Shown here piece by piece: positions 49,206 to 63,177 of a stretch of 64,000 bases of DNA (the first letter of the stretch is position 1; each line of letters opens with the position of its first letter). This DNA comes from an uncultured Opitutia bacterium. Lineage in GTDB: Bacteria > Verrucomicrobiota > Verrucomicrobiia > Opitutales > UBA953. The notes under the pieces were generated by a model. The model was not told the origin of the DNA and did not search any database. It was given only the letters and a program-made list of their open reading frames with translations. Position numbers and translations under genes: made by a program. Location: NCBI GenBank assembly GCA_945957395.1, contig CAMFKE010000009.1, forward strand, positions 62,001 through 126,000, given 5' to 3'.

Positions 49206-49349
49206 CGCGAAGTAGTTCAAAAAAAGGGGAAAGACCAACCGGCGCCGCGCGGTCCCTCAGGGAGGAGGAGGATTTTAACCCTCCCCTTCCCTGCGGGAAT
49301 CCGGCGCGAACGCCAGTCGGTCAATGGAAGCGGTAAGCGTTACGCTTAC
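49206..49349 (-). promoter_or_regulatory. Structured secY leader
   Basis: On the minus strand the rplO-secY gap holds a hairpin overlapping the rplO stop codon (GTAAGCG / CGCTTAC, 49333-49349), a GGAGGG / TCCTCC pairing near 49263-49284, and a stem GGGACC / GGTC-TTT-CCC that runs straight into seven T residues (49219-49225), 13 bases before the secY ATG. The last looks like an attenuator of moderate strength. Confidence 0.4.
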
Positions 49350-49813
49350 TTGGCTTCGCAGGAGCCGGCCGAGCAGGAGAGCTCGACGGCCTTGCCGCCG
49401 GCGGCCTCGATCTTGGCCTTGGCGGTGGCGGAGAACTTGTGGGCCTTGACGGTGACGGCGCGCTTGATTTCGCCGACGCCGAGGACCTTCACGAGCAGGT
49501 CGGAAGCGCGCACGAGACCAGCCTTCACGAGGCAGTCGCGGCACACTTCGTTGCCCTGGATGGCGTCGAAGTCGCCAACGTTGACCACGGCGAACTCGAC
49601 GCGGTTGACGTTGTTGAAGCCGCGGTGGGGCAGCTTGCGGTAGAGAGGCATCTGACCGCCTTCGAAGCCGGGACGAACGCCGCCGCCGGAGCGGGCCTTC
49701 ATACCCTTGTGGCCGCGACCGGAGGTCTTGCCGTGGCCGGATCCGCGGCCGCAGCCGAGGCGCTTGTGGCGGTGCGTGGAGCCCGCGATTTCAGGAAGAG
49801 TGTGGAGCTTCAT
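49346..49813 (-). CDS. rplO: 50S ribosomal protein L15
   Basis: A 155-residue uL15. The Gly/Arg-rich N-terminal extension that threads into 23S rRNA is clear (GCGRGSGHGKTSGRGHKGMK), followed by GGQMPLYRKLPHRGF. The short C-terminal domain ends in ELSCSAGSCEAK, with two extra Cys. rpmD (L30), normally between rpsE and rplO, is missing: the gap is 36 bases. Confidence 0.96.
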   Translation of the reverse strand: MKLHTLPEIAGSTHRHKRLGCGRGSGHGKTSGRGHKGMKARSGGGVRPGFEGGQMPLYRKLPHRGFNNVNRVEFAVVNVGDFDAIQGNEVCRDCLVKAGLVRASDLLVKVLGVGEIKRAVTVKAHKFSATAKAKIEAAGGKAVELSCSAGSCEAK

Positions 49814-49849
49814 GGTGTGTTACCCTTTGCTATTCTGCCAGGGATGATC

Positions 49850-50467
49850 TTAGGCGCGAACGGCCTTGATCTGTTCGAGGGTGCGCAGCTTGGACAGACC
49901 GTCCAGGGTGGCCTTGACCACCGCGGCATGGTTGTTCGAGCCGAGCGACTTGGTGAGCACGTCCTTGACGCCGGCCGCCTCGAGGACGGCGCGCACACCA
50001 CCGCCGGCGATGAGGCCGGTACCGGGGGAAGCGGGCTTGAGGAGCACCTTGCCGCCGTCGAATTCGCCGAGGACTTCGTGCGGGATGGTGTTGTTGCGCA
50101 GGTTGACCGGCTTGAGAGCGCGGCGGGAGCGGTCGGTGCCCTTCTTGATGGCATCCGGCACTTCCTTGGCCTTGCCGTAGCCGAGGCCGACGCGGCCCTT
50201 GCCGTCACCGACCACCACGAGGGCGGCGAAGGTGAAGCGACGGCCGCCCTTGACGGTCTTGGCGCAGCGGTTCACGTGCACGACCTTCTCGATAAACTCG
50301 GAAGGAGCCTCCTCCTGCTTGCGACGGTTGTCGCGGCGGGGGCCGCGGTTGCCACCGGGGCCGCTGTCACGGCCGCGACGGGGACGCTCGTTGCCCTGGG
50401 GGGCGGCGCCGGTGTTGGCGCCGGCTTCGGGAGCGGCGGGGGCGGAAGAATTGGTTTCGTTGGACAT
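49850..50467 (-). CDS. rpsE: 30S ribosomal protein S5 with a Gly/Arg-rich N-terminal extension
   Basis: A 205-residue uS5; E. coli S5 has 167. The first 50 or so residues are low-complexity ([20 protein letters not shown]), like an RGG-type RNA-binding tail. The double-stranded-RNA-binding-like domain starts near [20 protein letters not shown], with [15 protein letters not shown] and [16 protein letters not shown] following. A clear Shine-Dalgarno (AAGGAG) precedes the ATG, so the extended start is the used one. Confidence 0.96.
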
Positions 50468-55299: not shown

Positions 55300-55647
55300 T
55301 TACTTCTGAAGGTTGGTGGATTCGGCGAGCACGATCTTGATGTGGCTCGTGCCCTTGTGGATCGGGTGCGCGCTGCCGCGGGCGGCGGGCATGAAGCGCT
55401 TGATCACCATGCCCTGGTCGACCGTGGCGGAGGCCACGACGAGGGTCTTGGAGGAGAGGTTGTGGTTGTTCTCCGCGTTGGCGATGGCGCTGGCGAGGGT
55501 CTTGGCCACAAGACGCGCGGACTTGCGCGGGATGTAGCGAAGCAGGTCGAGCGCCTGAGTGGCGGGGAGACCCTGGATCTGGCGGGTGACTTCGCGCACC
55601 TTGGTGGGCGACATCCGCGCGGATCGGGTGAGAGCTTGGACTTGCAT
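55300..55647 (-). CDS. rplV: 50S ribosomal protein L22
   Basis: A 115-residue uL22. The globular part (ALTRSARMSPTKVREVTRQI, AENNHNLSSKTLVVASATVD) and the tunnel-lining β-hairpin (VIKRFMPAARGSAHPIHKG) are conserved. Normally it follows rpsS directly; here a lipoprotein gene intervenes. Confidence 0.97.
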   Translation of the reverse strand: MQVQALTRSARMSPTKVREVTRQIQGLPATQALDLLRYIPRKSARLVAKTLASAIANAENNHNLSSKTLVVASATVDQGMVIKRFMPAARGSAHPIHKGTSHIKIVLAESTNLQK

Positions 55648-55659
55648 GTCGGGAATCAG

Positions 55660-56019
55660 TTAAGGGACTACAGTTTTCACTTTGGCCGAGTCGCCGGCCT
55701 TGACGGTTTCGTCGGGTGTCAGGTCTAGGATGAGGGCAGCCGCACTGTCCTGTGTCGCCTCGGCGACGACCAAGGAGGCGATGGCCTTACCTTGGCGGCT
55801 GAGGATGAGATTCATCCCGGGTCTGACGCCCGCGGCGTAGCCGGCGTTGAGTATGACCAGGTCGGCGTGGGTGCCCGTCCGAACCCGGAGCACCTCCCCC
55901 GCCCCGCGCCCGTCGGTGACGGGCGCGAAGTCGGGGGAAGGGTTCCGGTCCTCCGCCGTCGTGCAACCTGCCGCGAGAGCGGCGAGAAGAAGCAGGGCGG
56001 CGGAAAGACGGGCGAACAC
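55660..56019 (-). CDS. Small lipoprotein inserted between rpsS and rplV
   Basis: A 119-residue predicted lipoprotein: signal peptide with lipobox LAAGC (Cys19), a Pro/Asp linker, then a compact β-domain (LRVRTGTHADLVILNAGYAA, GVRPGMNLILSRQGKAIASL, AGDSAKVKTVVP). The pattern hydrophobic strand - NAGYAAGV - RPGM - SRQGK - VVAEATQDSAAALIL resembles FlgT C-terminal/SH3-like domains, but the family is not identified. The start is GTG, 2 bases after the rpsS stop; its own stop lies 12 bases before rplV, so it must be cotranscribed with the ribosomal genes. Codon use is less biased than that of its neighbours. Confidence 0.85.
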   Translation of the reverse strand: MFARLSAALLLLAALAAGCTTAEDRNPSPDFAPVTDGRGAGEVLRVRTGTHADLVILNAGYAAGVRPGMNLILSRQGKAIASLVVAEATQDSAAALILDLTPDETVKAGDSAKVKTVVP

Positions 56020-56021
56020 GA

Positions 56022-56297
56022 TTACGCGGTCTTCTTGGTCGGCGTGGTGTGCTGCTTGAACGTGCGGGTGGGAGCGAACTCGCCCAGCTTGTGACCGACC
56101 ATGTTTTCGGTCACATAGACGGGGACGAAGGTCTTGCCGTTATGCACGTTGAGGTTGAGCCCGATGAAGTCGGGGGTGATGGTCGAACGGCGGGACCAGG
56201 TGTTGATGGGCTTGCGGCTGTTCGCCTTGGCGGCGACGACCACTTTGTCCATCAGCGAGCTGTCGACGTAGAAACCTTTTTTAACGGAACGGGCCAT
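56022..56297 (-). CDS. rpsS: 30S ribosomal protein S19
   Basis: A 91-residue uS19 of the small-subunit head. [40 protein letters not shown] and [20 protein letters not shown] are the conserved blocks. The stop codon lies 2 bases before the lipoprotein GTG. Confidence 0.97.
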
Positions 56298-62622: not shown

Positions 62623-63177
62623 ATGAAGCACTCTCCCGCCAAGTCCGCGCTCGTCATTCTCACCCATGGATTCGAGGAGCTCGAAACCGTGGCGCCGGCG
62701 GACCTTCTGCGCAGAGCGGGGGCCGAAGTCGTCCTCGCCACGACCGATCCCCGGCCGGAGCCCGTTTGCGGTCGGTGCGGCATGAGCCTCCTCCCCGACT
62801 CCACACTGGACGCCGTGGCGGGACGGCATTTCGACATGCTTGTCATACCCGGCGGCCCGGGAGTGAAGCAGCTGCGCCGCGACCCGCGCATCGCCGCCCT
62901 CGCGAAGGAGTTTCTCGCGCGTGGAAAGCCCGTGGCCGCCATCTGCGCCGCACCGCTCGTCCTCGGCGATGCCGGGCTGCTCGCGGGCAGAACCTTCACC
63001 GCCCACTTCTCCGCCCGCGCCGAGCTCCCGGGGGCAGGCGACGAGCCGGTGGTTGTCGACGGCGACATCGTGACCTCCCGCGGCGCGGGAACCGCCCTGC
63101 CCTTCGGACTGGCCCTGGTGCGCATTCTCTTCGGCCCGGATTGCGAGCGGGAGATTCGCGAGCAGATCATGGCCTAG
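62623..63177 (+). CDS. DJ-1/PfpI-family protein
   Basis: A 184-residue protein of the DJ-1/YajL branch. The nucleophile elbow AAICAAPLVLGDAG has Cys108, with Glu18 (THGFEELE) placed as in human DJ-1 (Cys106, Glu18). The PGGPGVKQLR loop is also typical. Family members are implicated in oxidative-stress protection and, in some reports, glyoxalase or deglycase activity; the activity here is not predictable. It is divergent from rpsL and ends at a terminator. Confidence 0.92.
   Translation: MKHSPAKSALVILTHGFEELETVAPADLLRRAGAEVVLATTDPRPEPVCGRCGMSLLPDSTLDAVAGRHFDMLVIPGGPGVKQLRRDPRIAALAKEFLARGKPVAAICAAPLVLGDAGLLAGRTFTAHFSARAELPGAGDEPVVVDGDIVTSRGAGTALPFGLALVRILFGPDCEREIREQIMA

Follow-up and report, generated by a model that had tools for sequence, protein, structure and literature searches.

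An exported-protein gene between rpsS and rplV

The DNA analysed here (the window) is a 64,000-nucleotide stretch (G000:C9:62001-126000) belonging to a 2.79-Mb genome, and the named sequences closest to its rplV come mostly from metagenome-assembled genomes titled Opitutae, Opitutales or Verrucomicrobia. Positions 55648-56021 constitute the whole gap between rpsS and rplV in the window, and they hold an open reading frame of 119 codons that opens with GTG at 56019 and closes with a stop codon at 55660-55662. The encoded protein consists of a hydrophobic signal ending in LAAGC, a short linker and approximately 77 residues of beta structure. The corresponding spacing in E. coli K-12 is 14 nt, with no gene between. 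The features of the locus are as follows.

55660-56019, minus strand: gene for a predicted exported protein of 119 aa with a GTG start (open reading frame, family homologues, locus position, dN/dS)
55966-56019, minus strand: predicted N-terminal signal peptide, residues 1-18, ending LAAG (sequence; model helix; hydrophobic segment in homologues)
55963-55965, minus strand: Cys19, predicted to be lipidated; relatives do not conserve it (sequence)
55669-55899, minus strand: predicted C-terminal beta-barrel domain, residues 41-117 (AlphaFold, match to the FlgT C-terminal domain, alignments A1-A4)
56020-56021, minus strand: spacer of 2 nt between the gene and the rpsS stop codon (sequence)
55648-55659, minus strand: spacer of 12 nt between the gene and the rplV start codon (sequence)
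56022-56297, minus strand: rpsS (S19), upstream neighbour (Pfam PF00203, 5.9e-35)
55300-55647, minus strand: rplV (L22), downstream neighbour (Pfam PF00237, 3.7e-35)

The first-pass annotation had proposed this reading frame, and its GTG start, length of 119 aa, LAAGC at residues 15-19 and flanking gaps of 2 and 12 nt were all borne out. The gene lies in the S10 operon and, judging from the arrangement of the locus, is almost surely cotranscribed with its ribosomal neighbours; a scan from rpsC to rplB detected no promoter- or terminator-like sites, which adds only weak evidence. Elsewhere in the window, an rpmD (L30) reading frame is absent between rpsE and rplO (49346-50467), and a DJ-1/PfpI-like reading frame, recognized by inspection (62623-63177, plus strand), lies next to where the str cluster begins, on the strand opposite to it.

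Quantifying substitution rates over 30 independent close pairs, we obtained a median dN/dS of 0.19 for the gene and 0.03 for rplV, with no pair reaching 1; the protein is kept by purifying selection. We also considered a role mainly in cis, in which the stretch would serve for translational spacing or coupling and so fix the ratio of rplV to rpsS, the protein being a by-product. The tight gaps on both sides would suit such a role, but the constraint acts on the protein, the domain is conserved while the length of the extracted homologues varies from 77 to 558 aa, and paralogues of the domain occur outside the operon, leaving a cis role very improbable.

Codon usage sets the gene apart from its neighbours, as had been noticed at first reading: its codon adaptation index (CAI) is 0.29, compared with 0.55-0.82 for the other cluster genes; long reading frames elsewhere in the window have a median of 0.38. 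The expected output per message is thus below that of the neighbours. A fixed ratio to ribosomes would follow from cotranscription, and fewer protein copies per message would be expected from the weak codon bias.

Distribution and descent across the phylum

To find relatives, we relied on profile searches; a scan of genome contigs with the single protein returned none, because the family diverges fast. Given that the fetched loci were chosen from the matches, presence rates are given as genome counts from the profile searches and not as locus counts, and a profile match is not in itself proof of a location in the S10 cluster. Within the family, 68 of 79 genomes contained a homologue, including all 36 of good quality, and nine of the 11 genomes without a match also lacked rpsS in the assembly (the other two were left out). 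The same insertion between rpsS and rplV was present at all 30 family loci fetched, in agreement with the synteny that the first-pass annotation had asked of related genomes.

At the level of the order, the family profile A1 matched 128 of 273 genomes, or 100 of the 183 of good quality, and 53 of 60 fetched loci carried the gene within the S10 cluster. The other seven were second or weak matches elsewhere, on anchored coiled-coil proteins that share the C-terminal domain. An order-wide profile, A2, matched 192 of 236 good genomes of the class, and the domain ended just upstream of rplV in 63 of the 64 genomes for which both coordinates were available. Matches outside the order were longer proteins of roughly 230-390 aa; in most of the 44 class loci that we read, a signal, a coiled coil and a barrel filled a gap of ~720-960 nt between rpsS and rplV, and six of the 44 had no such gene. 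The class-wide profile A3 in turn reached other classes of the phylum, where every fetched locus with rpsS upstream (17/17) carried the gene between rpsS and rplV. Over 164 loci, the median gap was 9 nt on the upstream side and 18 nt on the downstream side. Across the phylum, the protein is 105-390 aa long, with an export signal at the N terminus and a single beta-barrel domain at the C terminus, often together with a coiled coil, and its gene is kept even in genomes of 1.3-1.5 Mb.

What the first-pass annotation had taken for a local oddity is instead a trait of the phylum, the one phylum to which the survey was confined, with E. coli as the outside reference. That annotation had also named outcomes that would count against the gene, namely a lack of purifying selection, absence from relatives and a sequencing chimera; none of these holds. 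A chimera or assembly artefact is ruled out by recurrence in independent genomes. Two public records titled Polynucleobacter and Akkermansia muciniphila (L214, L226) carry an rplV region of the Opitutae type with the short form of the gene, and their titles look wrong.

Distances between gene domains followed those between L22 proteins (Mantel r 0.50; none of 999 permutations was as high), as expected for mainly vertical descent, the gene being inherited along with rplV. Some parts of the order and class lack the gene, and there rpsS and rplV are separated by 0-180 nt. Lineages in which the two genes almost touch indicate that the gene is not indispensable everywhere: it is ancient, has been cleanly lost in several lineages and is dispensable in some backgrounds.

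In several families of other classes, the S10 cluster is broken exactly between rpsS and the gene (L313-L317, L319, L321-L329, L334, L341-L351). At 17 loci of other classes, the gene stands directly before rplV with no rpsS upstream. These split loci run from the gene into rplV-rpsC, and the DNA upstream is unrelated, for example tatC (by inspection) in L315. In all 11 split-cluster genomes examined, rpsS was found in a separate piece after rplB (L2), mostly with L23, and no rplV followed it. Breakage upstream of the gene, which stays joined to rplV, is accordingly the common pattern; genus g192 (L318, L320) is an exception, in which the gene is present and rplV was not detected within the fetched stretch. 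Paralogues of the domain also occur outside the operon on anchored coiled-coil proteins (L335:3878-5517 and L103, L104, L105, L107, L108), two of them, in L335, forming a tandem pair close to dnaX and rplM-rpsI (as judged by inspection).

These observations bear on the main rival of an envelope-coupling role, according to which an ordinary, useful periplasmic protein landed between rpsS and rplV in the phylum ancestor and has remained there as a passenger of a cluster that rearranges very slowly, its address having no regulatory meaning. The clean losses in several lineages and a codon bias resembling that of ordinary genes speak for it. Furthermore, genes have been found inserted at operon junctions in gammaproteobacteria and Bacilli, where small insertions can precede full operon separation (Brandis, PMC8046335), a course of events that fits the split clusters seen in this phylum. 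Against this, a passenger should land on either side when the cluster breaks, but in most of the families seen the gene has remained beside rplV. We consider this explanation possible, though somewhat unlikely.

Export signal, fold and candidate relatives

Signal types and lipoboxes were judged by eye, by pattern and by simple rules. An N-terminal hydrophobic segment was present in 160 of 183 distinct homologues and in none of 183 L22 controls. The window protein carries a lipobox, LAAGC (residues 15-19), preceded by a hydrophobic run without charges, so that the lipoprotein proposed at first reading stands, as a prediction, for the window species. As a general trait it does not stand: a lipobox-like motif occurred in three of 211 homologues, in one of which an ordinary cleavage site is the better reading, and the remaining homologues have ordinary Sec signals or membrane anchors. 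Lipid anchoring would therefore be a trait nearly unique to the window species, shared with few others, whereas the conserved property, well supported by these N-terminal signals, is that of a predicted exported envelope protein. The export signal argues against a cytoplasmic protein that binds ribosomes or acts in translation. At residue 71 (55807-55809), a Cys that is near-invariant in the family (GMVC) is replaced by Leu in the window species, which has the lipobox Cys.

AlphaFold, run with the window protein and 34 named relatives, returned a model with a mean pLDDT of 85, about 94-97 per ten-residue block over residues 41-110, and a helix at residues 2-17. A Foldseek search with this model yielded no match below 1e-3, FlgT chains being the best. 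In VIA-align, the top match was the C-terminal domain of FlgT (3w1e; Z 10.8, rmsd 2.0 over 74 residues), and the N-terminal barrels of F1-ATPase followed close behind, with Z up to 10.1. Since these barrels score near FlgT, the fold is a common small barrel that by itself says little on function, and the structural link to FlgT is suggestive only.

Family profiles gave a similar picture. No Pfam or NCBIfam family seen in our scans was matched above its cut-off; FlgT_C (PF16538) scored 14.9 bits against the window protein, under the gathering score of 27. Among 30 long forms, 14 weakly matched FlgT_C (best E 6.2e-5) and six weakly matched MreC (best 7.7e-6, far below the cut-offs), matches that point to the same class of periplasmic barrels. 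For the window protein itself, there was no match to PF04085 (MreC), and MreC did not appear among the 50 structural matches listed, which does not exclude an MreC fold. Sequence searches of the PDB returned mostly chance matches to coiled coils, together with marginal ones to TsaP (3jc8, 0.09) and a LysM protein (6ve2, 0.65). The matches listed for the window protein and the long forms included no LysM domain.

The likeness to FlgT thus lies in an exported small barrel (PF16538; 3w1e, 8z5n) that superimposes with rmsd 1.9-2.0 over 73-74 residues at 23% identity. FlgT, however, has three domains compared with one here, the 119-residue window protein lacking the N-terminal and middle domains, and its match is under the Pfam cut-off. 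A component of the flagellar ring akin to FlgT, as the best fold match might suggest, would moreover be expected to accompany the flagellar P-ring, yet 23 of the 24 carriers tested, including the window genome, yielded no flgI, and among good genomes of the order flgI was present in eight of 100 carriers as against 43 of 83 non-carriers. We give such a component next to no credence, and a general flagellar role is ruled out by these counts (flgI not found in 23/24 tested carriers or in 92/100 good carriers of the order). As an observation in its own right, flgI and the insert avoid each other in the order (Fisher p 2e-11); this avoidance is clean within family f21, absent within family f14 and probably due to shared ancestry.

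The profile matches to the FlgT-like C-terminal part of TsaP, although marginal, raise another candidate, an accessory of an outer-membrane secretin of type IV pili or type II secretion whose barrel binds the secretin ring. The FlgT C-terminal fold and the presence of secretins in most genomes tested agree with it. Nevertheless, no LysM domain such as that of TsaP was among the matches listed, secretins are about as frequent in genomes without the gene, and the gene also occurs in genomes where a secretin was not detected (G153, G037) or is broken (G140), bearing in mind that draft assemblies limit such absence calls. We regard a TsaP-like accessory as distinctly unlikely.

MreC (PF04085 / NF010520) resembles the long forms in its order of parts, an N-terminal membrane signal, a coiled coil and a small beta barrel; unlike MreC, the gene lies outside any mre cluster. 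The window genome encodes a separate, true MreC (G000:C2), and a substitute for MreC is ruled out on this ground.

Proposed role and significance

Non-ribosomal genes are familiar members of the S10, spc and alpha clusters, where secY, adk, map and infA act in translation, secretion or general metabolism. The present gene resembles them in being a non-ribosomal gene expressed from a ribosomal operon. It differs in that those genes sit in spc and alpha, whereas here a predicted envelope protein is encoded inside the rpsS-rplV pair.

Position, export and constraint are well supported; the molecular job is inferred. Our preferred reading, put forward tentatively at a probability of roughly 0.4, would make the protein a scaffold or assembly factor for the envelope, comparable in type to MreC/FlgT-C, with its supply tied to ribosome synthesis. 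An uncleaved anchor, a lipid or a partner would keep the protein at the membrane; long forms would oligomerise through the coiled coil, and the barrel would bind another envelope component. In the order to which the window belongs, the coiled coil may have been lost or never present, leaving a signal and a barrel only. It is the address of the gene that suggests coupling between envelope and ribosomes: carried on a ribosomal message, the protein would rise and fall in supply with ribosome synthesis, and envelope growth would thereby keep pace with growth rate.

We searched the literature on rpsS-rplV inserts, S10 operons of Verrucomicrobia and signature proteins of the PVC group, and no description of the gene was found; the small PVC signature protein described in PMC3444138 is not the one studied here. 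Nor did a term search through the main text of the essential-genome paper on V. spinosum (PMC12283558) turn up any passage about the gene. The full proposal, that an undescribed, phylum-wide envelope family has sat in the S10 operon since the phylum ancestor and hard-wires an envelope scaffold to ribosome synthesis, strikes us as rather unlikely.

The pair rpsS-rplV is among the most stable of gene pairs, and to find an exported protein kept there across a phylum is surprising and demands an explanation. The gene is a candidate lineage marker and represents an unannotated family. Its retention beside a ribosomal neighbour hints at a link of ribosome production with envelope building and, if this is true, translation capacity and the cell envelope would be linked through growth rate. 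The question of how bacteria match envelope growth to their ribosome content is open, and in cultivable Verrucomicrobia the gene offers a way to test one form of it.
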